From Methyloversatilis discipulorum (GTDB lineage: Bacteria; Pseudomonadota; Gammaproteobacteria; Burkholderiales; Rhodocyclaceae), in assembly GCF_000385375.1 (NCBI RefSeq), contig NZ_ARVV01000001.1, positions 1,860,001 through 1,924,000 on the forward strand: 64,000 nt of DNA, in the 5' to 3' direction. A program made the position numbers and the translations under genes. Positions 13,861 to 63,159 of this stretch are shown in pieces. The notes below the pieces were generated by a model. It was given only the letters and a program-made list of their open reading frames with translations, was not told where the DNA came from and did no database searches. Position 1 is the stretch's first letter. Each line of letters starts with the position of its first letter.

Positions 13861-13927
13861 CGCCAACGTCTGAATTCACCGGCCTGCGCGGCTTTTCGCG
13901 CAGTTCCGGTGGAATGATGTGTTAGCA
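13861..13927 (-). repeat. Integron attC site
   Basis: In gene orientation it starts TGCTAAC and ends ACGTTGGCG, the paired core sites. Imperfect self-complementary arms (CACCGG/CCGGTG, CTGCGCG/CGCGCAG) lie between. It is directly downstream of the 257-residue gene, whose stop is 3 bp away. Confidence 0.75.
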
Positions 13928-13929
13928 CG

Positions 13930-14703
13930 CTACCCACCGATTGCTTCCCTTAACTTGCGCAATATTTTGATTCCATACGCGCCGGGAACCTGCGCGACGA
14001 GACCATATGTCAGCGAGGCAGCAGCAATAACCCAAGGGTCGGAAACTTGCCACACTAAGGCAAATATCGCTGCAACACCGATCACTACACCCGCGAGGGC
14101 AGCACGTGGTTGGGGAACACCAAGAATCTGATTTTGCGGAACCCTAAACTTTAAACGCACACCCTTTTGCATTACCGCCAGCCAGATCGTCGGTGGATTC
14201 GTGGTGTTTGGCGAATTCAAGTAGGTGAGTTTGATTGCTTGCCCCCTATTCATGATCGGCACAATGTATTCGCGCTGTCCGTTGTAGATTGCCCATTGGT
14301 TTTCAGATGGCGACGCCCCTGCTTCTACATGCAATTGCTTCTTGTAATCTTCCGACCACTGCAGAATGTTCGGTGTACCCACCACCTGGGTTTGTTCGGT
14401 CAGTAGCCGAGTGTTGTCTGTGTAAGCGCGAACAACCACATTTTCGTAGTCGTTCATGCTTTCGTTTTTTAACTCGATGGTTGAAAGATAGAGGTTGGAA
14501 ACTGGATTGTTATTCCAAGAGACTGCGACCGTACCGAAGATCACATCTTCCGTGGACATGCCTACCCGTTGGTGATTTACAAAATAGGTAAATGTTCCTC
14601 GCTTGTTAAGAACTCTCTGCGTGAGCCAAGCAGTGATAACACCGCCAATACCGCCTGCGATTGCGGAGACGTATTCGCTTTGAATGATCTGTAGGAGGTT
14701 CAT
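13930..14703 (-). CDS. Cassette-encoded membrane-anchored hypothetical protein
   Basis: 257 residues. There is one hydrophobic segment at the N-terminus (EYVSAIAGGIGGVITAWLTQ) and a two-helix hairpin near residues 205-245 (AALAGVVIGVAAIFALVW, DPWVIAAASLTYGLVAQVPG). Between them lies a ~170-residue beta-rich soluble domain of a type seen in small membrane proteins of unknown role. The family is not recognised. Its stop abuts an attC and its start follows another attC, so this is a gene cassette, second from the attI-like site of the first integron segment. Confidence 0.7.
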   Translation of the reverse strand: MNLLQIIQSEYVSAIAGGIGGVITAWLTQRVLNKRGTFTYFVNHQRVGMSTEDVIFGTVAVSWNNNPVSNLYLSTIELKNESMNDYENVVVRAYTDNTRLLTEQTQVVGTPNILQWSEDYKKQLHVEAGASPSENQWAIYNGQREYIVPIMNRGQAIKLTYLNSPNTTNPPTIWLAVMQKGVRLKFRVPQNQILGVPQPRAALAGVVIGVAAIFALVWQVSDPWVIAAASLTYGLVAQVPGAYGIKILRKLREAIGG

Positions 14704-14710
14704 AGTGGCG

Positions 14711-14827
14711 CGCTACGCCCAAGGTAAGCGGCACCGGAGCACCGAAGGTGCGGAGGGTGCCAACACAGGCCATGAGAATGGCGAAGCCATGGCCTGTGTT
14801 GGTGTCCGCTTGACCGCCCAGTTAGGC
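14711..14827 (-). repeat. Integron attC site of duplicated cassette (locus 1 copy)
   Basis: 118-bp class of attC with long complementary arms (GGCACC.../...GGTGCC and ACACAGGCCAT/ATGGCCTGTGT). It is the same site as at 57519-57636, except that the outer GTTAGGC core has become GTAGCGC here, which may block further excision. Confidence 0.75.
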
Positions 14828-14855
14828 CGCACTTTCTTTGCGAAGAATTCATAGG

Positions 14856-15191
14856 CTAGCCTGCGATTAGTTCCAGATTGGCCCAGGCAACTTCGGGTGC
14901 CAGGAAAGAACTGCCCGGTACTTTATTCCAGACGGCGGAGCTCTCTGGTTCGTTCACACGGTGAGGAGCCCAGCCCTCTTTCGTGAGGGACGTGATTGAT
15001 TGGAAGCTTGCTGCACTCGCTGGCTGGAGATTGAACGTGAACTCGAACTGCGCTTCGTTCTTCCAGTATGGTCGAGCCAAAGAAGCGGGGCTGGGATGCC
15101 ATGCACTCAACGCTTGACGCAGCCGAGCATCAATAGCGGCAGCCTCTTCAGGTCCACCGCAGTTAGCGAACAAACGTAGGAATAGCTTCAT
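14856..15191 (-). CDS. Cassette-encoded hypothetical protein, copy 1
   Basis: 111 residues, cytosolic in appearance, with a helical N-terminus (KLFLRLFANCGGPEEAAAID) and an aromatic-rich centre (ARPYWKNEAQFEFTFNL). No known motif was recognised. The gene and its attC form a 491-bp cassette that recurs at 57524-58014 with two base changes, both giving Glu to Gln. Here it is the first cassette, directly beside the attI-like junction, the position in which a newly inserted cassette is expected. Expression would come from a promoter in the attI region. Confidence 0.75.
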   Translation of the reverse strand: MKLFLRLFANCGGPEEAAAIDARLRQALSAWHPSPASLARPYWKNEAQFEFTFNLQPASAASFQSITSLTKEGWAPHRVNEPESSAVWNKVPGSSFLAPEVAWANLELIAG

Positions 15192-15198
15192 TCGTGCG

Positions 15199-15232
15199 GC
15201 CTAACTTTGTTTTCTGGCGCAGTTTTGCGCCA
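15199..15232 (-). other. attI-like integron recombination site
   Basis: Read on the minus strand the cassette joins the sequence AAAACAAAGTTAGGC. This is the same 15 bases that end attI1 of class 1 integrons, as I recall that site. A TGGCGCA/TGCGCCA hairpin lies 11 bp further. No integrase gene follows in the next 400 bp, where one would be expected on the plus strand. Confidence 0.65.
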
Positions 15233-15637
15233 TAATTATGGGCGGTGGTGGATAAATACGAAAAGTTTTCATCGGGAACTTCCTTTTTTTCAGTCGGTTG
15301 GCGCGCTGTGTGCCGGATAACTAGCGATTAAACGAACACAAAAAACCTCACCTTTGCGTTTCCGGCAAGTGGAGCATAGCCACGGGGTCTGTTCCATCAG
15401 TCATTTATCCGAGCGGAGGCGCTCTGGGCGGCACCTTGAAGTAGCTGCCTGGTCGGGCGGTTTCTCCCTTTTGTAGCCGTGCGGCCGCGGTAACCTTGCT
15501 TGCCTGAGGCGGATCTGCGGCAATCACGGGCGTCGGAGGTATTGGAGCTGAACCTTGACGCATGCCCGGGCACGGCATCCCGGCAGCGGATAGATTGCGG
15601 CCTTTCCCGCTTCTTCCCGGCATCGCCGCCCCCGCCC
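15233..15637. other. Intergenic region flanking the attI-like site
   Basis: About 400 bp that in an intact integron would hold the 5' end of intI and the cassette promoter Pc. No integrase motif was found in any frame. On the minus strand, CATAAT at about 15230-15236 could be a -10 element reading into the cassettes, with only a weak -35. The right half is GC-rich and precedes the next chromosomal gene. Confidence 0.45.
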
Positions 15638-48812: not shown

Positions 48813-49010
48813 GTTTCAGTTCCGCGATCGCCGTTTGATAGTCGCTCCCTGAGGGCCATCCCCGTCGCTGCCGGGCGTTCTCGAAAAACCAAACCGGGGG
48901 TAGATCACGGTTTTCTAAGTCAGTGTTCGAAAAGTTCTTGAATGAAAACGTGGCACGTCTTCTCATGTGGAATGACCGGCCACACGGCGTCGGCTGGAGG
49001 GGTGCTGCCA

Positions 49011-49823
49011 TTACTTTCCGAACCAACCCTTTGCTTTGGCAACGTTTGCCCGCTTCGTATCAAGGACAAACCCGATTCCCCGCTTCTCAAACCGCTCTTC
49101 CAGCGTGTCGGCCCCCTTCTTGAGCTTGAGGTCCATTTCCTCCTTGTACAGCGGCGTCAGCACGTAGAACGAAATCGTGTCCCCGGACTTTGTCCGGAAC
49201 TGGAAGAAGTCTTTGGGCAGTGAATACGGTGGCGTGAGCATCGCGCCGACAAAACCCGTATTTGCAATGGGTTCCGGCGGGTCGCCATTGGGAATCGAAT
49301 GCCCCCACCCGATCCACGTCTTGTACTCATGGGGCAGGCGCCCGATCGTCTTCAGCCACCTTACCGGCCAGTAGTTCGCTTCGTTCTTGAGCGATTCCTG
49401 GTCGAGAGGCCAGTCACGCGGCAGAGCGATAAGAAGCTCGACCCGACGGAATTTCTGCATCCCCTCAGGAACATTCATCGGTTCGTCGCTTACACCGCTG
49501 GTCACCAGCACGTGATAAGGACGTTCCGCCGTAGCAGGAACGATCAGCACATCAAGATGGACCAGATCGGACAGAACTTCGTGGTAGACGGACTCAACCT
49601 TCCCGATGTACTTCTCGACGTGAGCTTCCACCTCTTCCAGATTTTTTCCGGAGTGCCTTGGAGCGGTCCATTCCGGGCTGCGTGGCTTGTGGCGATAGAT
49701 GGGACTGCCGGATTCGGATCTCTCTTCTACGTGCGACATGGACCCCTTCCTGTCGGCGGAATGGACAGATGGCGCCGCGGCGAGCGTGGCCACAAACAAG
49801 AACACAACGGTGAGGTATTTCAT
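49011..49823 (-). CDS. Exported SUFU (suppressor-of-fused) domain protein
   Basis: 270 residues from ATG 49823. The signal peptide is YLTVVFLFVATLAAAPSVHSA. Residues ~60-260 resemble the bacterial SUFU-domain family (VHLDVLIVPATAERPYHVLV, TSGVSDEPMNVP, RRVELLIALPRDWPL, FFQFRTKSGDTISFYVLTPLY). Bacterial SUFU proteins are often immunity factors or of unknown role, mostly cytosolic, so the leader is unusual. The frame runs open without a stop into the gene upstream, so a 424-residue fusion from 50285 is formally possible. The leader argues for a separate start. Confidence 0.75.
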   Translation of the reverse strand: MKYLTVVFLFVATLAAAPSVHSADRKGSMSHVEERSESGSPIYRHKPRSPEWTAPRHSGKNLEEVEAHVEKYIGKVESVYHEVLSDLVHLDVLIVPATAERPYHVLVTSGVSDEPMNVPEGMQKFRRVELLIALPRDWPLDQESLKNEANYWPVRWLKTIGRLPHEYKTWIGWGHSIPNGDPPEPIANTGFVGAMLTPPYSLPKDFFQFRTKSGDTISFYVLTPLYKEEMDLKLKKGADTLEERFEKRGIGFVLDTKRANVAKAKGWFGK

Positions 49824-50285
49824 GATGGCTGGCGTGGAAGTGGGCGGCCTGCGCTGCTTTTCGCTCAGGTCCGCACGACTGCAGGGTCGGCCCCTTCGGG
49901 CCAGAATTCCATACGCATGGTAAGGGGCCTCGGAGACAACCAATTTCTCTGGAATGGGTTCGGTGTTTCCGTTCAGATGCACGTCGAGCCCATCGAAATC
50001 TCCGTTTGCATCCGCATAGACAATGAACTCAAGGGACGCACCGGGCGGCTGCTTTGTCGGGAACTCAGCAAGAAAGACAGCGTGACCTCTCCCGGAAGGC
50101 GGGACGATTGGAGCGGTTTGCCTTCCCTCCTCAAGCACCATGTTGAAACTGTTACAACCACACTCACAAAGGCGTGTGATCTTCCCGGCGTTGAATTGTG
50201 CGAGAGGCGCTTCGCCAGCGACGAACTCAGGACATTCTGCAATGAACTTTGCCCAGTGAGCGGCGGCTTCGGCGCTGTTCGTCAT
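49824..50285 (-). CDS. Hypothetical protein in frame with the SUFU gene (possible frameshift)
   Basis: Begins at ATG 50285 (TNSAEAAAHWAKFIAECPEF). It has a Cys cluster (RLCECGCNSF) and a globular region to PEKLVVSEAPYHAYG. Beyond that, this frame turns into an unlikely Arg-rich linker and enters the signal peptide of the SUFU gene. A neighbouring frame instead ends in MRMEFWPEGADPAVVRT and a stop at 49865, which looks like a natural C-terminus. A one-base frameshift near 49920 or a true fusion are both possible. Function not recognised. Confidence 0.5.
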
Positions 50286-50373
50286 GAGAGGGCTAACGCC
50301 GAAAATCGGGATATATGCGATTCGAATAGTGGTCGGGCTACGATTATGTCGCCCCACCAGAGATTGAGATTGC

Positions 50374-50400
50374 GGAAAATGTGGTCGGTCCCCTATTTTT
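50374..50400. repeat. Short motif shared with 13805-13832
   Basis: GGAAAATGTGGTCGGTCCCC followed by TATTTTT, against GAAAACGTGGTCTGTCCCCTATTGTTTT at the first island. Both lie in non-coding gaps of the cassette regions. The GGGGACxGACCAC core is a motif I have often seen near REP-type or degraded mobile sequences, but its identity is not certain. Confidence 0.4.
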
Positions 50401-50410
50401 CGATACGGGC

Positions 50411-50671
50411 TCATGCATATGACGCGACCTGCTGGCTCAGAAGATCGACGCGAAGGACTCTTGGACCGTCGATCACGTAGCCATTGAGTTTCCACTCGAT
50501 GACGACGGCCCACTTGGTCCATGTCTTTCTGTGTTTTGAATCAGAAGCCATTTCGTCCGGAGATGCGTCTATCACTTGCCAAGACCAGCCCGCTTTCTGC
50601 TCTTGGCCTTTGAGAAAGGACTCGGCAAGCGCCATGGCTTGCTGTCTCGCCTGATCGTTGCTTATGCGCAT
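50411..50671 (-). CDS. Cassette-encoded hypothetical protein
   Basis: 86 residues, cytosolic. The sequence MRISNDQARQQAMALAESFL then WSWQVIDASPDEMAS and a beta-rich end (WAVVIEWKLNGYVIDGPRVLRVD) has the look of a small single-domain protein. No family recognised. The start lies 11 bp after an attC in gene orientation, as for the other cassettes. Its own attC is not clear on the downstream side. Confidence 0.6.
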   Translation of the reverse strand: MRISNDQARQQAMALAESFLKGQEQKAGWSWQVIDASPDEMASDSKHRKTWTKWAVVIEWKLNGYVIDGPRVLRVDLLSQQVASYA

Positions 50672-50681
50672 TCAATGCGAG

Positions 50682-50739
50682 CCCAACGTCAGAGTTCAGG
50701 CGCGGCCGTAGGCCGTCGCCTGGAACGACCAGTTAGGCC
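50682..50739 (-). repeat. Integron attC site
   Basis: 58 bp. In gene orientation it opens GCCTAAC and closes ACGTTGGGC, with complementary arms (CAGGCG/CGCCTG, GGCC inner arms) between. It is the lowest-coordinate clear attC of the large array. Confidence 0.8.
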
Positions 50740-50771
50740 CCACGGCGCACGGAACAGCACGAGTTGCAGCG

Positions 50772-51383
50772 TCATTTCTCGGTGAGCCTCCACTGATCGC
50801 CGATGACGTTCTCCCCTTCCTCCAGATCGGCTCTTGCTTTTTCTTCCTCTTGAAGTTCCCTTGCGCGTCTGACCGAAGCCGCCTTTCTCCGAAACTCGTC
50901 GTATGGCCCAGGCCTGGAAAGAGCGCTAGAGAAAAGCATCCATGCAAACGACGCCAATGCCATGCCGAGCCCGATCTGAATTCCAAGCAGATCGTTTCCA
51001 TGGCGCATGGCGGCAATGTCGCTGTAGGAGCAGACCGCGCTCTGGCCAGCGTGGATCCCGAAGACACGGTGATACTGCCCCGCCACAAGCGGTCTGCTGG
51101 CGGCAACATCGTACTGAACAGTTAGGCGTTGCCCCCGCAGATTCAGTAGCTGCTCCCGCACCTTCCCACATCGTCGTCCAAAAGAAAGATACCCCAGACG
51201 CACGTCAACGCCTTCAAGATTGAGTATCAAAAGTGAGCCCTGCGTGCCCACCGAAACCAGCGTCGCCGAAACATCGTTGAGCTATGGTTTGTCAGACTCC
51301 AGCTTCCACCAAGCACACGAGGCAACGAGGCATCCCACCACCATCAAAGCGATCAGGTGCCAGTATTTGCGGATCACTCGCAT
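50772..51383 (-). pseudogene. Cassette membrane protein interrupted by an in-frame amber codon
   Basis: ATG at 51383 follows an attC and reads MRVIRKYWHLIALMVVGCLV and on through WWKLESDKP. Then a single TAG (51282-51284) interrupts. The same frame continues without further stops for about 170 codons (LNDVSATLVSVGTQGSLLIL, ...). It ends in a membrane helix (LLGIQIGLGMALASFAWMLF) and a charged coil at 50772. The N-terminal leader and the 3' body clearly belong together, so one substitution (CAG to TAG would do it) has broken the gene. Restart at GTG 51251 would give a leaderless 159-residue product. Confidence 0.65.
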
Positions 51384-51386
51384 GGT

Positions 51387-51473
51387 GTCTAACGTAGAGC
51401 TGACCGGCGCTGCGCGGCTTTATCGCGCAGCGTCCAGCGACCAAAGGGAGCCAGGTTGAGCGCCATGTTAGGG
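51387..51473 (-). repeat. Integron attC site
   Basis: 87 bp. Core pair CCCTAAC ... ACGTTAGAC in gene orientation, with stem arms GGCGCT/AGCGCC and CTGCGCG/CGCGCAG. It is nearly identical to the attC at 58529-58615. Confidence 0.85.
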
Positions 51474-51480
51474 ATCGATT

Positions 51481-52470
51481 TCACTCCAGCGACGCGCGGT
51501 AAATAGTCCCGTCCTTACCACCAACTAGAGCAAACGCCCCCGTCCGAGATACTGCTATCGACGCGATTTCCGTTGGCATGGGCTGCTCCTTGATTAGTTT
51601 TCCTGTAGCCGCGTCCCATGTAAGCAGCCTTTTGTCTTGCCCGCCAGATATAACGCGTCGCCCATCTGGAGAAAGCCGTATTGCTCTGACGTCCATGGTA
51701 TGCCCAGTCATTCGCCTAAGTTCAAGACCGGTAGTAAGGTCCCACATCACAAGTGTTTTCCGATCAATTCCGTAGGAAACCGCAAGATTGCCACCCATCC
51801 CCAAAGCAAGTGGACCGCCTTTGTATGCTTTGTTTTGGATTACCGACAACTGCTTACATGTAGACAAATCCCACGTTCGGATGCTTTGGTCTTGGCTAGC
51901 GGAGATGGCATTCTTTCCGTCATTGAGGAAGGCCACACTGTTCAACGCGTACATGCGCTCATGCCCAATCAATTGGCATATAGATTTCCCTGTGGCGCGA
52001 TTCCAAAGAATCAACGCACCGCCTGGACCCGCAGAAAGAATGGTATCGCCCCGTGCAGATACCGAAACAGCATTGATTCCCCACGGATGCTCAACGAGCC
52101 GACGTTCGCTATTTAGTGTCTTCAAATTCCAAATCTCAACGGCCTTATCGAGGCCGCCTGAAACAGCAAAGGCTCCATCGGGGGTAAATTTCACATCGAA
52201 AGTCGCGTAGAGGTTAGCAATGTGATGTGCATTGAAGTGCGCCAGTTCCTTCTTGGTAAGGATGTCCCAGAATCGGATTCCATCGCTTTCGCTACCAGAT
52301 AGGACTTTCGTTTCATCCGGCGCGAGCGCGATTGCCCTGACCCAAGAGGCATGACCACGCAAGAATGGGACTACATCGTCTGCCGCAAACGACGATTGTG
52401 TAAGAGCGACCAACGCCACGACGAGCAGCGAAGTACGAACGTGTGCTCCGAAGATGCGGATGGCAGTCAT
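51481..52470 (-). CDS. Exported WD40-repeat protein (cassette)
   Basis: 329 residues. The signal peptide (TSLLVVALVALTQSSFAADD) is followed by a WD40 propeller of about seven blades. Each blade ends in a W/F-D-like pair (GIRFWDILTKKE, AVEIWNLKTLN, ALILWNRATGK, SIRTWDLSTCK, TLVMWDLTTGL, RLLTWDAATGK). The GH dipeptides are present (RGHASWVRAIALAP, GHERMYALNSVA, TGHTMDVRAIRLSP). It should be a periplasmic protein-interaction platform. It lies between two attC sites, so a large gene cassette. The partner is unknown. Confidence 0.85.
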   Translation of the reverse strand: MTAIRIFGAHVRTSLLVVALVALTQSSFAADDVVPFLRGHASWVRAIALAPDETKVLSGSESDGIRFWDILTKKELAHFNAHHIANLYATFDVKFTPDGAFAVSGGLDKAVEIWNLKTLNSERRLVEHPWGINAVSVSARGDTILSAGPGGALILWNRATGKSICQLIGHERMYALNSVAFLNDGKNAISASQDQSIRTWDLSTCKQLSVIQNKAYKGGPLALGMGGNLAVSYGIDRKTLVMWDLTTGLELRRMTGHTMDVRAIRLSPDGRRVISGGQDKRLLTWDAATGKLIKEQPMPTEIASIAVSRTGAFALVGGKDGTIYRASLE

Positions 52471-52478
52471 ATCGAGAT

Positions 52479-52556
52479 CCCTAACGTTTAAGCTCAGCCG
52501 ACCGCATAGGCGGACGAAGCCCGCTGTAGCGGTTCGGCTGGAGCGCAGGGTTGGGC
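52479..52556 (-). repeat. Integron attC site
   Basis: 78 bp. Cores GCCCAAC and ACGTTAGGG in gene orientation, arms CAGCCGA/TCGGCTG. It overlaps the end of the Sel1-type cassette gene's downstream side. Confidence 0.8.
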
Positions 52557-52557
52557 A

Positions 52558-53169
52558 TCACTTTGGGCATACCAATTTGGCTTCTAACTCAACTTTGCGG
52601 CTCTTTGCTGCCTTAACTTCTTCTGCAGAGGATAGCTTTTCGACATGAGACACACCGCTGGCTGCATCGTCATTGTTGGGCGCGGCTATGTACACCCACG
52701 CTAGTGCCTCTGCTTTATTGGACGAGCCAGCTTCTCCCGAGTAGAGGAGGTGTGCGAGCTGGTTCTGAGCAGTGGCATCACATGAATATGAGGCTTTACT
52801 AAAATATTCCTTGGCACGACCAATATCAGGCGATACACCTTCACCTTTCAGGTACATCAGACCAAGCATCGTGTCTGCTCCTGTTTCCCCTTTCTCGGAA
52901 CTACTCTCGAAGAGTGACTTTGCCTTTGCGTAGTCTTTAACTACACCCTCTCCAAAGTAGTAATAAGTTCCCAAGGCAAAAATAGATTTTGGGTCACCCT
53001 TCTCCGCTCCTTGCTCAAAGAAAACTATGGCCATCTTGATGTCACCCCTCTCGTGTTGCGCGACACCAGCTTCGTAATCCGACTTAATACGAAGTCGAAA
53101 TTCGGCAAGAGCCACTTGGCATGAGATAGCAAAAACAATTGCAATTAGGGCTTTGAGACAAGACTTCAT
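52558..53169 (-). CDS. Exported Sel1/TPR-like repeat protein (cassette)
   Basis: 203 residues. The signal peptide is LKALIAIVFAISCQVALAEF. Sel1-like repeats span residues ~35-150 (YEAGVAQHERGDIKMAIVFF, ALGTYYYFGEGVVKDYAKAK, MLGLMYLKGEGVSPDIGRAK, QLAHLLYSGEAGSSNKAEAL). A helical tail ends in a Cys (AKLVCPK). It is a periplasmic interaction protein of the Sel1 type. The stop lies at the edge of its attC, the hallmark of a cassette. Confidence 0.82.
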   Translation of the reverse strand: MKSCLKALIAIVFAISCQVALAEFRLRIKSDYEAGVAQHERGDIKMAIVFFEQGAEKGDPKSIFALGTYYYFGEGVVKDYAKAKSLFESSSEKGETGADTMLGLMYLKGEGVSPDIGRAKEYFSKASYSCDATAQNQLAHLLYSGEAGSSNKAEALAWVYIAAPNNDDAASGVSHVEKLSSAEEVKAAKSRKVELEAKLVCPK

Positions 53170-53201
53170 ACTAAGCTCCGACCATTAAAATGATTTTTGA
53201 T

Positions 53202-53297
53202 GCCCAACGTCGTAGTTGTGCGGACGCCGGAGCGGCGCAGCCGCGCAGGGAACCCAAAGCGCAGCTTTGGGCGGTCCGCTCGAACGCAGTGTTGGAC
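53202..53297 (-). repeat. Integron attC site
   Basis: 96 bp. Cores GTCCAAC ... ACGTTGGGC in gene orientation, long arms GCGGACCGCCCAAAG/CTTTGGG...GTCCGC. It is the same sequence type as 54822-54917 (about one difference) and 55187-55282. Confidence 0.85.
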
Positions 53298-53573
53298 GGC
53301 ACCGAGACCGTCAGCGAAGGCACGTTGCGCATGACGAAGCCCTTGCCCCTCACAATTGATTTGAACTGAACCAGGCAAGCGGCGCCCGCTACGGCCTGCT
53401 GCCCTCAATGCCCCGAAACACTAGCACAAGGGCATGGCGCAACAAGGGGCGACCTCACTCATGCCCGGAGTGCTTACCCTGCAAATCGCACTGTTCGGCG
53501 CAGGTACCTGCGCGGGCGCAGGACGTCGACTTGGACCGCCCGCCAGAAACCTAAAGAACCGGTGACGTTCAAC
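53291..53573 (-). repeat. Gene-less integron cassette, copy A
   Basis: 283 bp between two attC cores with no supported gene. Copies B (54911-55193) and C (55276-55557) are alignable over their full length, B about 95% and C about 80% by eye. An open stretch of ~50 codons reading ERHRFF and on to VAPCCAMPLC persists in all three on the minus strand. It begins inside attC without a consistent start or ribosome site, so it is not called. Confidence 0.75.
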
Positions 53574-53623
53574 GTGAAGGTGAGCGGACGCCGCAGGCGG
53601 TCCGCTCGACTGAAATGTTAAGC
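53567..53623 (-). repeat. Integron attC site
   Basis: 57 bp. Cores GCTTAAC ... ACGTTGAAC in gene orientation, arms GAGCGGACCGCC/GGCGGTCCGCTC-like. The stop of the 109-residue gene lies within it. Confidence 0.8.
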
Positions 53624-53947
53624 CTCACGGCTTGGGGCTGGATGTTCATACTCGTCGAAGAAGAGACCTCCTCGGTCTGCCAGGAATGCCGCGCAATCCT
53701 TCGCGTCCGAAACTGAGTTGCACACGATCCCATAAAGCATGACAAAGAACTGCCCTTCAACTTCTCTGACGCTCATTACGAGACTTTGCTCTGGGGTGAA
53801 GTACGAAGGCCTTTCGGCTGACCAACCGGCAGGCCATGGAAAGGCTCTCTGTGCCTTTGGCACTTCCAAGACCTCGATGTGCCCAGTGGCATTGCCAAAG
53901 GCGCTCGTCGGTGACGAGAAGACGGAGACGTCGATCCGGATACGCAC
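53618..53947 (-). CDS. Cassette-encoded hypothetical protein
   Basis: 109 residues starting at GTG 53947. A soluble mixed fold with one hydrophobic strand region (GQFFVMLYGIVCNSVSDAKD) and an acidic end (GGLFFDEYEHPAPSREA). No family recognised. The TAA stop is part of the attC core GTTAAGC. That overlap is typical of cassettes and supports the call. The upstream attC ends 8 bp from the start. Confidence 0.6.
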   Translation of the reverse strand: MRIRIDVSVFSSPTSAFGNATGHIEVLEVPKAQRAFPWPAGWSAERPSYFTPEQSLVMSVREVEGQFFVMLYGIVCNSVSDAKDCAAFLADRGGLFFDEYEHPAPSREA

Positions 53948-53954
53948 TAGTGGG

Positions 53955-54026
53955 GTTTAACGACGAAGGTCAGCGGTAGGCGGACAGCGCAGCTGGCCGA
54001 CTGTCCGCTGGACCGGATGGTTAGGA
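53955..54026 (-). repeat. Integron attC site
   Basis: 72 bp. Cores TCCTAAC ... TCGTTAAAC in gene orientation, arms CCAGCGGACAG/CTG-TCCGC with inner GCCAGCTGCGC pairing. Confidence 0.8.
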
Positions 54027-54476
54027 TGGACAGCCAACTTGCGCCTTTTTATCAACAGGTGCATAGCCGAATGAAGTCTTGTACGCATGCAAAAATGCGG
54101 TTGTCTCTGGCACAGACCAGACCATCATTTCCGTTATCTGCTGCTTCTCGAACTGCGTGTGGTAGATCAATCGCACCTCATTGGGAAAACAGGACGTTGC
54201 TACCAGCGTGGAGGATAAGTATTTTCCGAGCAGCGTTTGAGCTGACTCCTCAGCTGCAATGAACTGCTCTTGCGTGATGGAGCTCTTCATCGCAGGGGAC
54301 GCGAGTTTATACATGCCGGTGAAATTCTGTTGGGCGTACAGCCGTCGAAATTCCTGTACTCCTGAAAGGGCACTTGCTCGATCCTTGGCAAAACTCCCGG
54401 CCTTAACCTGAGCGTCACAAGCAGCCACCGGACCCAAAAGCAACAGAAGAAAAATGCGCCACCAGTTCTTATGCAT
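54021..54476 (-). CDS. Cassette-encoded lipoprotein
   Basis: 151 residues. The lipoprotein leader (WWRIFLLLLLGPVAACDAQV) ends in the lipobox V-A-A-C. The mature part is DUF3887/DUF4019-like in style (FRRLYAQQNFTGMYKLASPA, MKSSITQEQFIAAEESAQTL), i.e. a small alpha+beta domain with a trailing Cys. It probably sits on the inner or outer membrane, facing the periplasm. The stop overlaps the attC core. The family is uncertain. Confidence 0.72.
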   Translation of the reverse strand: MHKNWWRIFLLLLLGPVAACDAQVKAGSFAKDRASALSGVQEFRRLYAQQNFTGMYKLASPAMKSSITQEQFIAAEESAQTLLGKYLSSTLVATSCFPNEVRLIYHTQFEKQQITEMMVWSVPETTAFLHAYKTSFGYAPVDKKAQVGCPS

Positions 54477-54482
54477 GCCGAA

Positions 54483-54569
54483 TCCTAACGTGGAGGTAAG
54501 CGGACGCCGAGCAGAGCGAGGGAACCCAAAGCGCAGCCTTGGGCGGTCCGCTTGACCGCAGGGTTGGGC
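54483..54569 (-). repeat. Integron attC site
   Basis: 87 bp. Cores GCCCAAC ... ACGTTAGGA in gene orientation, arms AAGCGGACCGCC/GGCGTCCGCTT and GCTGCGC inner stem. Related to 58008-58094. Confidence 0.85.
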
Positions 54570-54596
54570 GTCCGGGAGCGAACTGGGTAAAGATGC

Positions 54597-54818
54597 TTAC
54601 ATTTGGTAGACAAGCCGCGCCTCGCCCGAAAAAAAGACAATGACTCGAACATCCGGCGGATCAACTACAGCGACCTGCGGATCAAGTGCTTCGGGAACCA
54701 GGAACACTACTTCCATTGCATCTTCCCCGGATGGTTCAACTTTTGCGGGCATGCAAAACGAAATCCCTCGATCTCTCAGGAAAGTCGCTGCGATGCTAAT
54801 CGCAGAGTCTTTGTTCAT
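54597..54818 (-). CDS. Cassette-encoded small hypothetical protein
   Basis: 73 residues from ATG 54818: NKDSAISIAATFLRDRGISF, then CMPAKVEPSGEDAMEVVFLV and on to VRVIVFFSGEARLVYQM. A short helix followed by strands, probably one small alpha/beta domain (the pattern suits 'DxA...FL...' dystatin-like or PepSY-like folds, but this is not certain). The start is 4 bp from an attC core in gene orientation. No family recognised. Confidence 0.62.
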   Translation of the reverse strand: MNKDSAISIAATFLRDRGISFCMPAKVEPSGEDAMEVVFLVPEALDPQVAVVDPPDVRVIVFFSGEARLVYQM

Positions 54819-54821
54819 GAC

Positions 54822-54917
54822 GCCCAACGTCGTAGTTGTGCGGACGCCGGAGCGGCGCAGCCGCGCAGGGCACCCAAAGCGCAGCTTTGGGCGGTCCGCT
54901 CGAACGCAGTGTTGGAC
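54822..54917 (-). repeat. Integron attC site
   Basis: 96 bp. Cores GTCCAAC ... ACGTTGGGC, almost identical to 53202-53297. Confidence 0.85.
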
Positions 54918-55193
54918 GGAACCGAGACCGTTAGCGAAGGCACGTTGTGCATACCGAAGCCCTAGCCCCTCACAGTTGATTTGAACTGAATCAGCCCAGC
55001 GGCGCCCGCTACGGCCTGCCGCCCTCAATGCCCCGAAACACTAGCACAAGGGCATGGCGCAACAAGGGGCGACCTCACTCATGCCCGGAGTGCTTACCCT
55101 GCAAATCGCACTGTTCGGCGCAGGTACCTGCGCGGGCGCAGGACGTCGACTTGGACCGCCCGCCAGAAACCTAAAGAACCGGTGACGTTCAAC
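54911..55193 (-). repeat. Gene-less integron cassette, copy B
   Basis: Second copy of the 283-bp non-coding cassette, the same length as copy A, carried with a near-identical attC. Confidence 0.75.
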
Positions 55194-55282
55194 GTCGTAG
55201 GTGAGAGGCCGCCGGAGCGGCGTAGCCGCGCAGGGCACCCAAAGCGCAGCTTTGGGCGGTCCTCTCGACCGTAGTGTTGGAC
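55187..55282 (-). repeat. Integron attC site
   Basis: 96 bp. Cores GTCCAAC ... ACGTTGAAC. A variant of the 53202 type in which the outer arms changed together (GAGAGGACCGCC/GGCGGCCTCTC), i.e. with compensating substitutions. Confidence 0.85.
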
Positions 55283-55557
55283 GGCACCGACACCGTCAGC
55301 GAAGGCAGGTTGTGCATGACGAAGCCGTTGCCCCTCAAAGGTGATCCGAACTGAACCAGGCCAGCGGCGCCCGCAACGGCCCGCCGCCCTCAATGCCCCG
55401 AAACACTAGCACATGGGCATGGCGCAACAAGGGGCCACCTCACGCGTGCTCGGAGTGTGCGGCGATCATTCTCGCTGACCGTTGCAGTCGCCTGCTCGGG
55501 CGCTGCACGCCGACTCGGACCGCCCGCCAGAAACACGAAGAACCGGTGACGTTCAAC
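55276..55557 (-). repeat. Gene-less integron cassette, copy C
   Basis: Third, more diverged copy of the non-coding cassette, directly in tandem with copy B. Confidence 0.75.
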
Positions 55558-55623
55558 GTGAAAGCTCAGCGGCGCCAAAAAGGCGGTAGTCTTTTTGGCG
55601 TCCGATGGAGCGCCTTGTTGGGC
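55551..55623 (-). repeat. Integron attC site
   Basis: 73 bp. Cores GCCCAAC ... ACGTTGAAC, strong arms GACGCCAAAAAG/CTTTTTGGCGCC-like. The 131-residue gene reads through its first half. Confidence 0.8.
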
Positions 55624-55961
55624 GCTTTTCGTTTACCAAGGACAAGCCCGCCAAGCGCACCCACGGCAACCAGCAGAGATGAAGCGGCGGCCGAGAAAAA
55701 GTACACCATGCCTTGCTCGTTCAATATTGCCGTTCTCATGTAGGGCTCCTGCCACAGGTCCCAAGTACCCCACAGCATGATTGCCCCTAAGCCCATGCCG
55801 AGTAAGGCTAGCCACCAGCGGAACCCAGCCAACGCCAAGGCGGCAGCGCCGAATAAGATGCCTTGCAGCAGAAGAAAACCAATGGTCGGAATCTTGTCCG
55901 ACACCTCTGCGGCTGCAAGTGTCGGTATAAGCAACCCGAAGAGCAGAACTGTGATTCTCAT
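55566..55961 (-). CDS. Cassette-encoded membrane protein
   Basis: 131 residues from ATG 55961. A signal peptide or first helix (RITVLLFGLLIPTLAAAEVS) is followed by three membrane helices (IGFLLLQGILFGAAALALAG, WWLALLGMGLGAIMLWGTW, VYFFSAAASSLLVAVGALGG). The last ~18 residues (NKALHRTPKRLPPFWRR) are translated from the attC site itself, a common trait of cassette genes. No family recognised. The attC of the next cassette lies 4 bp before the start. Confidence 0.68.
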   Translation of the reverse strand: MRITVLLFGLLIPTLAAAEVSDKIPTIGFLLLQGILFGAAALALAGFRWWLALLGMGLGAIMLWGTWDLWQEPYMRTAILNEQGMVYFFSAAASSLLVAVGALGGLVLGKRKAPNKALHRTPKRLPPFWRR

Positions 55962-55964
55962 GAC

Positions 55965-56069
55965 GCCCAACGTGGAGCTAACCGGCCGCCGGAGGCCGAA
56001 GGCCGGAGGGTACCCAACAGGCGCGCGCAGCGCGGTTGTTGGGCGGTCCGGTTGAGCGTAGTGTTATGT
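55965..56069 (-). repeat. Integron attC site
   Basis: 105 bp. Outer cores ACATAAC ... ACGTTGGGC, arms CAACCGGACCGCC/GGCCGGTTAG-type plus an inner GTTGGGTACC stem. The 364-residue gene ends inside it. Confidence 0.75.
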
Positions 56070-57072
56070 TTCGGATTAGTTTCTCGAGCTTCGATGACGC
56101 TATGCCAAGCAATACTGAAAATGCAGAGCTCCCGAATAGCTTGAGCATTACGAAGCGTTTCCGACTGGCAAATTCGTCGATCAAATTTGCGTCGCCCTTG
56201 TTTAACTTCAAATAAGACAAGACGGGGTACCCGTCGATAACTTCCTCAAAAAGCGAACCGATTGCTCCCATTAGGGGAACTAGAATGAGAGCGCCTCCTG
56301 CGTATACGACGAAGAAGCGCGCCCATGTTTCCGGTGAGGTTGTTGATGAAAAGAAAGCCGGAACTGACTGGAGTGCAAACCAAGAAATTATGAGGCCAAC
56401 AGCCAGTTTCGCTAGCCCAGGCGCTAGATGCGACCAGCGGCGCAAGGGGTTAAGCCAGGCGACGGGCGCTTCCTTCTTGCAGCCGCGAATCCACTCCTCG
56501 AAGGCCTCGAGAAATCCTCTGGCTATCACATAGTCGGCGTAGTCGACTGTCACCTCGGCTGTGTTTAGAGCGACGAATCCAGCGAGGTGGCCTCGAACAA
56601 ACGGCGGTGCTTCGTCCTCGATTTGCTGAAGCATTGCGATACGCGATGTAAGGCGAATTGACACAACATATTCTTGCGGCCTTTCTAAGCCTGCGGGCAC
56701 TATCGAGAAGTTATATTTGAGGACGAGGCTGACAGTTGGACTCGCGGCATTGGCGTTATACGCGCGAAATCGTTCAAAGGAAGTGAACTGTTCTTTGCGT
56801 TCTTTGTCATGAAATACAGAAATTACTTCATTACATGCGACCACTTTGTGTACATCGCATAACTGTTGCACCTTGAAATGCAACTGTTCAATTTCCGGGA
56901 ACTCTACGAGCAAGTTATCGGAATAGCGCTTTCGGATTTGCTCGGTTCGTCCAGTAACTTGGTGATATATGTCTTGATACACCTTGAGCGATACACGAGA
57001 ACCGCCGTCCCCTACGCGAACGACCTCGATGTTTCCGTCTCCATTTTCCGAGTGTTCGATTAAGTCTCCCAT
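55978..57072 (-). CDS. Cassette-encoded large hypothetical membrane protein
   Basis: 364 residues. A soluble N-terminal ~215 residues (GDLIEHSENGDGNIEVVRVG, FRAYNANAASPTVSLVLKYN, YVVSIRLTSRIAMLQQIEDE) is followed by two membrane helices (LAKLAVGLIISWFALQSVPA, WARFFVVYAGGALILVPLMG) and a cytosolic tail with a weak third helix (MLKLFGSSAFSVLLGIASSK). The final ~30 residues are encoded by the attC and are probably without function. No family recognised. It is the largest cassette in the array, with lower GC than the host genes. Confidence 0.7.
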   Translation of the reverse strand: MGDLIEHSENGDGNIEVVRVGDGGSRVSLKVYQDIYHQVTGRTEQIRKRYSDNLLVEFPEIEQLHFKVQQLCDVHKVVACNEVISVFHDKERKEQFTSFERFRAYNANAASPTVSLVLKYNFSIVPAGLERPQEYVVSIRLTSRIAMLQQIEDEAPPFVRGHLAGFVALNTAEVTVDYADYVIARGFLEAFEEWIRGCKKEAPVAWLNPLRRWSHLAPGLAKLAVGLIISWFALQSVPAFFSSTTSPETWARFFVVYAGGALILVPLMGAIGSLFEEVIDGYPVLSYLKLNKGDANLIDEFASRKRFVMLKLFGSSAFSVLLGIASSKLEKLIRNITLRSTGPPNNRAARACWVPSGLRPPAAG

Positions 57073-57100
57073 CTAGAGTCTCCCTTGGTGAAGGACTGAA

Positions 57101-57173
57101 ACATAACGCTGGAGCTAAGCGGCCACATCAATCGCGAAGCGATTGATTGGTCCGCTTGAGCGAAATGTTAGGC
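57101..57173 (-). repeat. Integron attC site
   Basis: 73 bp. Cores GCCTAAC ... GCGTTATGT, arms CAAGCGGACCA/TGGCCGCTTAG, with the hairpin tip ATCAATCGC-GAAGCGATTGAT. Confidence 0.82.
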
Positions 57174-57506
57174 CTCACGCCCCGCCCTCACAACGGCGGC
57201 TAGATCAGGGCGGCGAAGACCTACGTAGTGATTGACTGCTGCTTTTGCTGCGACATAAGCCGCATCTCTCGCCGAACCAAATGAATCGTCGTTGTCCAGC
57301 GAGTCAGTGAAAACAGTTTTCGGGGAATTTAGTTCATCGCGAATACGACGCACCAAATCCTCGCAGCGCGATGGCTGAGTTGTTTGTAGCAGCCTGGCGT
57401 AATGAGCCGCTGCACTTATGACTCTTGAGTCGGAAGTCGCAGCTGCCAGCTTGCGCAACGCGTCAATCAGGTGGGACAGCACGGTGTCGGTTTCAGTTGC
57501 GACCAT
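57168..57506 (-). CDS. Cassette-encoded hypothetical helical protein
   Basis: 112 residues from ATG 57506 (VATETDTVLSHLIDALRKLA). Mainly helical and Ala-rich (ISAAAHYARLLQTTQPSRCE, ARDAAYVAAKAAVNHYVGLR), cytosolic. An ATG 45 codons further upstream lies inside the next attC and is rejected. The stop lies in the attC core. No family recognised. Confidence 0.65.
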   Translation of the reverse strand: MVATETDTVLSHLIDALRKLAAATSDSRVISAAAHYARLLQTTQPSRCEDLVRRIRDELNSPKTVFTDSLDNDDSFGSARDAAYVAAKAAVNHYVGLRRPDLAAVVRAGREA

Positions 57507-57518
57507 GGTCTGTGTGAG

Positions 57519-57636
57519 GCCTAACGCCCAAGGTAAGCGGCACCGGAGCACCGAAGGTGCGGAGGGTGCCAACACAGGCCATGAGAATGGCGAAGCCATG
57601 GCCTGTGTTGGTGTCCGCTTGACCGCCCAGTTAGGC
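57519..57636 (-). repeat. Integron attC site of duplicated cassette (locus 2 copy)
   Basis: 118 bp with intact cores GCCTAAC ... GCGTTAGGC and three stacked arm pairs. The locus 1 copy at 14711 is the same except for the damaged outer core. Confidence 0.85.
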
Positions 57637-57664
57637 CGCACTTTCTTTGCGAAGAATTCATAGG

Positions 57665-58000
57665 CTAGCCTGCGATTAGTTGCAGATTGGCCCAGGCAAC
57701 TTCGGGTGCCAGGAAAGAACTGCCCGGTACTTTATTCCAGACGGCGGAGCTCTCTGGTTCGTTCACACGGTGAGGAGCCCAGCCCTCTTTCGTGAGGGAC
57801 GTGATTGATTGGAAGCTTGCTGCACTCGCTGGCTGGAGATTGAACGTGAACTCGAACTGCGCTTCGTTCTTCCAGTATGGTCGAGCCAAAGAAGCGGGGC
57901 TGGGATGCCATGCACTCAACGCTTGACGCAGCCGAGCATCAATAGCGGCAGCCTCTTGAGGTCCACCGCAGTTAGCGAACAAACGTAGGAATAGCTTCAT
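57665..58000 (-). CDS. Cassette-encoded hypothetical protein, copy 2
   Basis: 111 residues, identical to the product at 14856-15191 except for Gln in place of Glu near residue 15 (CGGPQEAA) and near the C-terminus (LQLIAG). It has the same cytosolic, helical/aromatic character with no known motif. Here it is the third cassette from the array's high-coordinate end, flanked by intact attC sites on both sides. This copy is therefore still mobilisable in principle. Confidence 0.75.
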   Translation of the reverse strand: MKLFLRLFANCGGPQEAAAIDARLRQALSAWHPSPASLARPYWKNEAQFEFTFNLQPASAASFQSITSLTKEGWAPHRVNEPESSAVWNKVPGSSFLAPEVAWANLQLIAG

Positions 58001-58007
58001 TCGTGCG

Positions 58008-58094
58008 GCCTAACGTGGAAGTAAGCGGACGGCGAGCAAAGCGAGCGAACCCAAAGCGCAGCTTTGGGCGGTCCGCTTGACTGCAGGGTTAGAC
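58008..58094 (-). repeat. Integron attC site
   Basis: 87 bp. Cores GTCTAAC ... ACGTTAGGC, arms CAAGCGGACCGCC/GCCGTCCGCTT and a CCCAAAGC/GCTTTGGG-type inner stem. It overlaps the stop of the 136-residue gene. Confidence 0.85.
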
Positions 58095-58499
58095 CTGTTG
58101 ACCACTGACGATTTGGTCCCTGTATGCACGCCACTTCTCCAAGCCCGAGGCAGGATCGGCTGCTTGATCAAGAAATGTGCTGTAGCTGAGGTCAACTGCT
58201 TGGCACTGTAGCTTGTTGCACAGATCAAAAATGCCTCCGAGAACGGCGTCGCTTGCGCGTACATGAAGCGCAAGACAGACAACAGGTTCTTCCTTCCCGA
58301 CGTTGAACTCAACCGAACCAAACTCAGCCTCGAAAATGCCCCAGATGGGGTCGGCCCAGCTGGTGCCAGGGAATGCGGCAGAGACAGCTAGCTGTATCTC
58401 CTTCAGTGACCCCAATGCGAATGGCTGTTCATCTTCTGGAATCTCATCAAGAGACTGATAGCGCTGGCTGAACCTGTACAGCGAAACATCCCAACTCAT
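58089..58499 (-). CDS. Cassette-encoded hypothetical protein
   Basis: 136 residues: SWDVSLYRFSQRYQSLDEIP, PIWGIFEAEFGSVEFNVGKE, VVCLALHVRASDAVLGGIFD. A soluble alpha/beta protein with the opening MSWDVSLYRF seen in a group of small uncharacterised proteins ('MSWDV.ly') that often travel in integrons or near polymorphic toxins. That link is from memory only. The stop overlaps the attC and the start is 30 bp from the next attC. Confidence 0.68.
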   Translation of the reverse strand: MSWDVSLYRFSQRYQSLDEIPEDEQPFALGSLKEIQLAVSAAFPGTSWADPIWGIFEAEFGSVEFNVGKEEPVVCLALHVRASDAVLGGIFDLCNKLQCQAVDLSYSTFLDQAADPASGLEKWRAYRDQIVSGQQV

Positions 58500-58528
58500 G
58501 CGTACTCCTTCGATGACGAGACGGATAG

Positions 58529-58615
58529 GTCTAACGTAGAGCTAACCGGCGCTGCGCGGCTTTATCGCGCAGCGTCCAGCGACCGAAGGGAGCGAGGTTG
58601 AGCGCCGGGTTAGGC
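58529..58615 (-). repeat. Integron attC site
   Basis: 87 bp. Cores GCCTAAC ... ACGTTAGAC, arms GGCGCT/AGCGCC and GCGCGATAAAGCCGCGC tip. Nearly identical to 51387-51473, 7 kb away. Confidence 0.85.
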
Positions 58616-58645
58616 CGCTGATGCGAGCTGAAGTTGTGCATTTTT

Positions 58646-58870
58646 TCACTTTGCACTTGCGAAAACAGACTTGGCGTCGCCTTCCGACGCCAAGAGGTGA
58701 AGCAAGTTGGCCGCTTTGTTGCAAGCGGACGAGAACAGCTTGTCGGTCTCTGCGGACTCAACCGCCATACTTCCAAGTTCTTGAATAAGAGACTTTCGAG
58801 CACTCGGCGCAAGCTGTACCCAGTCATCTAGTGCGGCCTCTAGTTCTACCTCCCTACGTCCGAGCGACAT
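58646..58870 (-). CDS. Cassette-encoded small helical protein
   Basis: 74 residues: SLGRREVELEAALDDWVQLA, PSARKSLIQELGSMAVESAE, LFSSACNKAANLLHLLASEG. All helical and charged, cytosolic. It is the first cassette of the array, 120 bp from the terminal recombination core, so it would be best expressed if a promoter lies in the boundary. No family recognised. Confidence 0.62.
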   Translation of the reverse strand: MSLGRREVELEAALDDWVQLAPSARKSLIQELGSMAVESAETDKLFSSACNKAANLLHLLASEGDAKSVFASAK

Positions 58871-58990
58871 GCGAGTTAACCTCTCCGATATGGCTAGCGG
58901 GCTAAGTCTTCGGCCGATGCTGACTTGCAGCGGGAGCCGTGATGGGTGTTACGAACTGATACGACTCCACGGTGAACGCACATGATGGAT

Positions 58991-59046
58991 GCCTAACGTG
59001 ATGTATACATCATGACTGCGTGATATATCGGAAGCCTGCGTGATAT
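58991..59046 (-). other. Array boundary with attI-like features
   Basis: A lone core (ACGTTAGGC on the minus strand, 58991-58999) is not paired with a second attC core. It is followed by the perfect palindrome GATGTATACATC and an 11-bp direct repeat CTGCGTGATAT at 59016 and 59036. attI sites carry direct integrase-binding repeats beside the crossover core, so this may be the attI of the large array, or an attC remnant. Confidence 0.45.
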
Positions 59047-59461
59047 TCCAGCGGACCCCGCAGACGATTCATTCGTGAAATCAAGGCCTTGCGGACGGCA
59101 TCCATTTATTCAGGCCTCTTATCTGCGGTGTTACACGACTATCTATCTTTTGCGCGAACCACTGCCCCCTCGGTCCGCGAAGAGGGGCTGCTTGCCTGTG
59201 TCGCGTCCTCATACCTGCCTTACTGTCCGCCATCTGAACCGCGTTTCCCGCTCCATCGCGTTTCGTTCTCGATGAAATAGACTGGTCTACTCCATTTACT
59301 CCCCGGGCAGAAATCTCATGGTAGGTGGCGCATGATGATGCCATCCTCGTACGTCGGCCTTTTTGCTGAAGGGGCGCCGCGCGCCCGAACGGCAGCGGTC
59401 GTTTGATTTTAGAAAATATTCATCCGGGACCCGCAAGCTCGGAAATCGCGATAGCATGAAT
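59047..59461. other. Intergenic region beyond the cassette array
   Basis: About 415 bp of intermediate GC where an integrase gene would be expected. No integrase motif was found in either direction, and open frames are short and without family likeness. Promoters for the first cassette could lie here but none is clear. Confidence 0.45.
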
Positions 59462-59728
59462 TTATTTTTCCTTCCCTCCTGAGTACCACGCATTGACTTC
59501 ATCAGGAGAAAAATTCCATCCCCTAATTAGTTTGATGGCGGAAACGAACATAAATACAGAAAGAGTTCCTATAACAATCCATACCATTGTCTGCTCTGAC
59601 CGGAATAGGCCATAAGCAGACAAGAAGATGACCGCCGTTGAGAGAAATAAAGCGGCAGTCGCCAGTACTCTAATCGCGAGCCAAAAAAACAACCACCGAA
59701 CTCGCTCAAATGCCGTGGGTCTTGTCAC
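59462..59728 (-). CDS. Small two-helix membrane protein
   Basis: 88 residues from GTG 59728. The frame is open upstream but without likeness to a protein. Two helices (LFFWLAIRVLATAALFLSTA continuing to VIFLSAYGLF, and MVWIVIGTLSVFMFVSAIKL) and a short polar tail (SPDEVNAWYSGGKEK) are seen. No family recognised. It has low GC like the cassette region but no attC is attached. Confidence 0.5.
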   Translation of the reverse strand: MTRPTAFERVRWLFFWLAIRVLATAALFLSTAVIFLSAYGLFRSEQTMVWIVIGTLSVFMFVSAIKLIRGWNFSPDEVNAWYSGGKEK

Positions 59729-62942: not shown

Positions 62943-63159
62943 GTGTGGGCTCCTCCCTGACGTGAATCTTTCGATTCTAGGCCGCTGATACGAGGTCGGA
63001 CAGCCTTGACAGGGGCGTGTTCCGGCGGTCGTCCGCGTCCCTGCTGGCATTGGCTGCGATGTCCACGGCCCGGCGGGCGATTGCGGTGCACCATGACAGT
63101 GCGAGGGCGCGGGGGTGGGGAAAGGCCCGGCGGCAATTACCTCTGGTCACGGGCGGCAT

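Follow-up and report, generated by a model that had tools for sequence, protein, structure and literature searches.

The 64,000-nucleotide stretch of Methyloversatilis discipulorum analysed here (the window; positions 1,860,001 to 1,924,000 of contig C1 of genome G000, a single contig of 4,251,015 bases) carries on its minus strand a large integron cassette array without an integrase gene, headed by what we read as an attI site. It is probable that this array and its counterparts elsewhere in the genome are decayed chromosomal integrons that were fed in trans by an integrase since lost from the strain. The main array would be the cassettes left behind by a chromosomal integron that has lost its own integrase gene, and its head would be an attI of a type here called B, the site where an integrase inserts circular cassettes. 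An integrase made elsewhere in the cell would have inserted cassettes at such orphan attI sites in trans, and its recent loss in G000 would have left the arrays frozen. At the level of sequence, this explanation is directly supported by the attC sites, the homology of the attI, the failure to find an integrase gene, the exact crossover boundaries and the cassette turnover relative to a sister genome; from these we infer the enzyme acting in trans, the recency of its loss and the present immobility of the arrays.

A sequence-only reading of the window had proposed fifteen attC sites of 58–118 bp separating cassettes that are all coded on the minus strand. Fifteen sites of 57–118 bp are indeed present at 50681-58615, all in the minus-strand (cassette) orientation. 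Scores of a first covariance model, R1, are circular on these sites because it was trained on them. We therefore rely on a second model, R3, which was trained on 20 sites from the arrays at the intI loci of genomes G001 (the sister genome), G002, G005 and G012, all from a comparison set of 13 Methyloversatilis genomes that includes G000. R3 is independent in its sequence source yet not fully unrelated to the window sites, as its training sites were originally found with R1 and BLAST detects relatives of 6 of the 15 window sites among them. It recovered all 15 sites with E values from 4e-14 to 6e-8 in a scan of the window, and the proposed sites are thus real. The array and its sites, with R3 E values, are:

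50681..58997, minus strand, main cassette array with 15 attC-bounded cassettes
50681..50738, minus strand, attC (3e-11)
51387..51473, minus strand, attC (6e-8)
52479..52556, minus strand, attC (5e-11)
53202..53297, minus strand, attC of a cassette without open reading frame (ORF) (4e-14)
53567..53623, minus strand, attC (2e-10)
53955..54026, minus strand, attC (6e-12)
54483..54569, minus strand, attC (4e-12)
54822..54917, minus strand, attC of an ORF-less cassette (4e-14)
55187..55282, minus strand, attC of an ORF-less cassette (7e-14)
55551..55623, minus strand, attC (2e-9)
55965..56069, minus strand, attC (1.5e-10)
57101..57173, minus strand, attC (5e-10)
57519..57636, minus strand, attC (8.5e-9)
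58008..58094, minus strand, attC (2.5e-12)
58529..58615, minus strand, attC (4e-10)

Elsewhere in the window R3 matched two sites at 13861-13927 (E 4e-7) and 14710-14827 (E 1e-4) and a degenerate site left of the array; nothing further scored below E 0.2 in the 64 kb, and the next match (E 0.22) lies on the other strand of one of the known sites. The sites show the R''/R' and L''/L' pairing with an extrahelical base that characterizes attC. With the extrahelical base, 84% of the cells in the arms were paired, as against 77% in shuffles and 21–41% when the arms were slid. Two-sided changes occurred at 7 of 16 arm pairs, a level reached by 17 of 500 shuffles; the count of further pair types in the arms was no better than in shuffles (131 of 500). 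Folding with DNA energies gave a more stable bottom (plus) strand, the one that an integrase would recombine, at 14 of the 15 sites and a z score of -2.0 or lower, relative to 60 shuffles, at 12 of 15; at some sites the single best fold leaves the R box unclosed. Overall, pairing, covariation and bottom-strand stability agree on attC identity. No Rfam family matched the window at gathering thresholds.

No integron integrase gene exceeded the cut-off in profile searches of the single G000 contig. TIGR02249 gave only a match at E 6e-4 to a PF00589 recombinase with an open frame of about 420 codons, and NF011946 had no match in G000. PF00589 itself matched two places in the genome, both outside the window, which agrees with the earlier statement that the window holds no tyrosine recombinase. 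The window and six further stretches fetched from G000 contain no N, and the remainder of the genome, where masked sequence could conceal an intI, was covered by the profile searches. Among the 13 genomes, intI is full-length in eight, partial in G006, in two pieces in G001, reduced to a fragment in G010 and not found in G000 and G008, the latter of which retains three attC matches despite having no intI. In relatives the gene lies beside gatB; the syntenic locus of G000 holds instead genes for Vsr, a C5 methylase and a protein of unknown function (L068:15952-18306), and a transposon. The results support the original proposal of a cluster of attC sites lacking an integron integrase (CALIN) or a chromosomal integron with its integrase lost or distant. 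Because there is no genome-wide match and the syntenic gatB locus is without intI, they point to an integrase that is lost rather than distant. A separate observation concerns the XerD model TIGR02225, which exceeded its cut-off in none of the 13 genomes: its only match in G000 (E 5e-11) is a PF00589 protein of about 420 residues, similar matches lie in open frames of 417–474 codons in 12 of the 13 genomes, and an ordinary XerC/XerD may be missing, divergent or masked in the genus.

The array ends on its right side at the first crossover, with the core GTTAGGC at 58991-58997. The sequence-only reading had placed this end at 58999; the extent of the array stands and the crossover lies at 58997/58996, two bases inside. 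The sequence before it, 146 bp long, recurs at other array heads in the genus:

58992..59137, minus strand, orphan attI type B at the head of the main array, a leader whose conservation among array heads extends to the GTT

By BLAST the leader occurs at seven places in 4 of the 13 genomes, the window included. In the fetched pieces attC sites follow at six of them, and the seventh, L171, is without the last part of the leader. A profile of the leader (R2), whose six training sequences are not independent since four represent one orthologous locus, gave matches at E <= 0.1 in 29 of 299 genomes, many of them weak. Twenty matched loci were fetched, of which 16 lie outside the genus, and at 6 of these 16 an intI gene or a piece of one adjoins the leader (near full length at L177 and L179, broken at L178, partial at L181, L184 and L176). 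Locus L170 keeps a LexA-type box like that found in the promoters of the intI genes in G002, G005 and G012. Because intI lies beside related leaders and because of the box at L170, 58992-59137 is read from its homology as an orphan attI of type B. An oversized attC was considered for the leader and rejected, as its arms appear unpaired by eye.

These data also bear on an off-target origin, in which a distant integrase inserted cassettes at a chance genomic site (attG) that was never an attI. Insertion at attG has been described (PMC12901181, available text), and CALINs are proposed to arise by three routes, namely off-target insertion, intI loss and rearrangement (PMC8618304, available text). 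The main array does not start at a non-attI genomic site: its leader is conserved and has relatives next to intI genes in other genera, and other arrays of G000 begin at attI of types 1 or 2. An off-target origin is disfavoured by the leader and very improbable for the main array, but may apply to a single attC at 2.199 Mb, where no attI was recognised.

A different question is whether the head arose at its present place, next to the ribonucleotide reductase (RNR) gene at 60051-63050, which places the genome in Methyloversatilis and whose top named match, at 99%, is M. discipulorum MAG_31. Upstream of the leader lies a decayed copy of the start of an ABC-transporter gene from another attI-B locus of G000 at 507 kb; the comparison scores 24 and 32, against means of 11.9 and 11.7 and maxima of 19.5 and 28 in 500 letter shuffles. 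The sister genome carries an attI-2 head at the RNR locus where the window has attI-B. It seems that the head at the RNR locus derives from the 507-kb locus or the reverse. We regard it as possible, if rather doubtful, that the head, with or without cassettes, moved here by rearrangement from another attI-B locus, which would be compatible with decay after feeding in trans. Such a move alone leaves the missing integrase unexplained as the 507-kb locus is likewise without intI, and the left part of the region, 49001-50316, is common to the sister genome (93% identity to its locus L026). This part includes the degenerate site:

49827..49892, minus strand, degenerate attC left of the array (R3 E 0.018), in the stretch common to the sister genome

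The main array is one of several in the genome. R1 gave at least 39 attC matches in G000 at E <= 1 when the best 150 of 7401 candidates were scored, and, in the window and the six fetched stretches, 50 matches with E values no higher than 5, of which 48 had E <= 0.04. They fall into about eight places (74-82, 507-513, 632-635, 1874-1875, 1911-1919, 2177, 2199 and 3487-3489 kb); 1874-1875 and 1911-1919 kb lie in the window, 2177 kb is one weak site and 2199 kb one site. G000 has seven or more orphan attI, which belong to three types, and at least five of the roughly eight attC places are headed by one. Four are of type 1, the type of the G005 attI, with at most about 31 codons of adjacent intI. 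Type 2, that of G002, is present at 3.4898 Mb and as a doubtful relic at 2.1759 Mb. The window contains, in addition to attI-B, one attI-1 with a short array:

13861..15205, minus strand, second array of two cassettes, attC at 13861-13927 and 14710-14827
15198..15355, minus strand, orphan attI type 1, of which 15203-15257 (55 bp) match the G005 attI by BLAST

Alignment with orthologues indicates that this attI-1 retains a decayed promoter and the first intI codons. It is common to 7 of the 13 genomes, and no strong intI match was placed there. A search of this locus for a clean empty site of the attI-1 unit gave none: in G008 there is no array, in G007 the flanks are 78 bp apart, and G004 and G009 carry, as judged by eye, an intI-2-like relic instead. 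The sister genomes have at most one integrase gene over the cut-off, yet several attI-headed arrays without integrase. The attI head, the roughly eight attC places, the seven or more orphan attI and the recent movement of cassettes between arrays are absent from the sequence-only reading.

Cassette turnover is apparent from a comparison with the sister genome. G000 and G001 share four orthologous orphan attI, in flanks that are about 89–95% identical, and the alignments run unbroken across the junction of flank and relic. Identity is 0.79–0.93 in the last 100 bp before the GTT and 0.10–0.55 in the 40 bases after it (0.55 at the 15-kb locus). At three of these loci the array interior has no stretch of 120 bp or more in common with the same G001 locus; at the fourth, a transposon is all that they share. 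In addition, two single-cassette transfers can be traced base by base. The first cassette of the 15.2-kb attI (14715-15205) differs from the main-array cassette at 57524..58014 (minus strand) by 2 mismatches in 491 bp, and the identity stops at both crossovers. The first cassette of the attI-1 at 631 kb differs from a cassette of the gatB-locus array by 1 mismatch over 501 bp, from crossover to crossover. Judged by sequence, such near-exact copies in first position are what attI x attC insertion would leave, here at sites that have no integrase of their own, and the orphan attI seem to have stayed in use as docking sites after integrase loss.

If each locus had instead held a complete integron until recently, the turnover would have occurred in cis and the integrases would then have been lost one by one. 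A C-terminal integrase fragment lies beside attC in G010, some 8 kb from the RNR gene, and the intI-2-like sequence of G004 and G009 at the 15-kb locus points the same way. Against this stand the unbroken flank-relic alignments in both sister genomes at the four compared loci: given these, loss most simply predates the split of G000 and G001, and the cassettes changed later. We consider serial loss after turnover in cis unlikely.

Several observations weigh against feeding in trans. Beside attI-B no intI was found at any of the places detected in the genus, and 10 of the 16 leader matches outside the genus have no adjacent intI, most of these matches being weak (accepted at E values as high as 0.1). 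Of the seven attI, those at 1.253 and 1.413 Mb have no attC nearby among the matches listed. Loss of intI at shared loci could in principle be recurrent, as attI-1 relics at more than one locus have a common left end. Gene conversion could also account for the near identity of the two cassette pairs, although it normally would not stop at crossovers.

The shared left end is a problem in its own right. In BLAST comparisons with the G005 integron, orphan attI-1 matches at two loci have starts no more than six bases apart, near IntI codon 7 (six places in five or six genomes, counted by place); at two other places the start lies farther away, near codon 31, and the remaining matches are confined to the attI proper. 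The 15-kb locus seems to share this left end, over some 15 bases only. This reading rests on the BLAST ends, as the anchor-picked comparison has its first ten bases identical by construction and did not include the 15-kb locus as it stands in the window, G001, G005 and G010. An integrase crossover was considered for the left end, where GTGAGGT fits GTTRRRY at six of seven positions, and was rejected because the shared letters extend beyond it. Independent deletions can hardly be the source, and the left end shared at two, perhaps three, unrelated loci remains outside our favoured explanation. An orphan attI-1 unit comprises the attI, a promoter and about seven intI codons in some 165 bp. We tentatively put forward, as a minority view, a distributed integron in which one SOS-controlled integrase serves many attI of several types spread over the chromosome and the docking site is portable as attI-1 units of about 165 bp.

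Sedentary chromosomal integrons are chromosomal and their cassette proteins are mostly of unknown function. The G000 arrays resemble them in these respects and in the LexA-type box that relatives have at their intI promoters, and differ in having no integrase and several heads of three attI types on one chromosome. Loot et al. (2024) reportedly described attG-integrated cassettes, with the integrase acting away from its own locus; these use a non-classical target site, whereas the target in the G000 arrays appears to be attI. A CALIN has at least two attC sites and no neighbouring intI, both of which apply to the main array. It lacks the intI of a complete integron and, by homology, has the attI; this recognisable head distinguishes it from a plain CALIN, as does the presence of several such heads in a genome where no integrase was detected. 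CALINs were roughly as numerous as complete integrons in one large survey, with 2961 against 2760 (PMC9024848, available text). Dispersed CALINs of Xanthomonas are integrase-less arrays at several conserved loci where intI was often lost, and mobilisation of CALINs in trans is stated as known (PMC12444791, available text). For these no attI is reported in the available text of that paper, whereas at least five of the roughly eight attC places in G000 have one; in addition, two transfers are traced base by base in G000. Retained attI mark these places as integrons minus the integrase, all in one genome, and the feeding of orphan attI in trans becomes directly testable. According to the part of its description available, IntegronFinder 2 detects attI of class 1 only; since the standard tool misses other attI, our findings suggest that other CALINs are worth re-reading for hidden attI. 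Among the literature titles found, none concerned attI-headed integrase-less arrays or Methyloversatilis integrons.

The cassette contents fit the earlier remarks that many stop codons overlap attC (6 of 12 picked cassette ORFs) and that most products have no known family. Of the 12 array ORFs only two passed the Pfam cut-off:

51481..52470, minus strand, cassette ORF, WD40-repeat protein of 329 aa (PF00400, E 5e-36)
52558..53169, minus strand, cassette ORF, Sel1-repeat protein of 203 aa (PF08238, E 7e-20)

One further ORF had sub-threshold matches to DUF3887 and DUF4019. PADLOC gave no match for nine of ten cassette proteins; a HEAT/ARM match of the WD40 protein covers 59 residues only and was taken as repeat similarity. 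A sigma-70 scan of 49000-59500 gave two promoter-like sites compared with 4.4 in shuffles. The three cassettes without evident ORF (53202-53573, 54822-55193 and 55187-55557) are copies of one type, about 85–96% identical, which also occurs in G001 arrays and elsewhere in G000. Across eight aligned copies the stretch TGTGCTAGTGTTTC is invariant, which might reflect a promoter or an RNA.

Two other repeats were observed. A DDE transposon (Pfam DDE_Tnp_1_6 and DUF772), which we take to be IS1182-like, is present in G000 at L068:9653-11482, L069:10029-11853 and L070:9652-11480 in copies that are 99.6–99.7% identical. An attC-like end adjoins its left side in seven of eight viewed copies, and CGTCGTTA adjoins its right side in all eight, in loci that were chosen for attC, so that a bias is likely. 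Related intergenic repeats, apparently with units of about 130 bp, lie in the window at 21.2-21.8, 27.9-28.2, 32.4-32.7, 45.6-45.9 and 63.2-63.5 kb and also occur at other loci of the genus.

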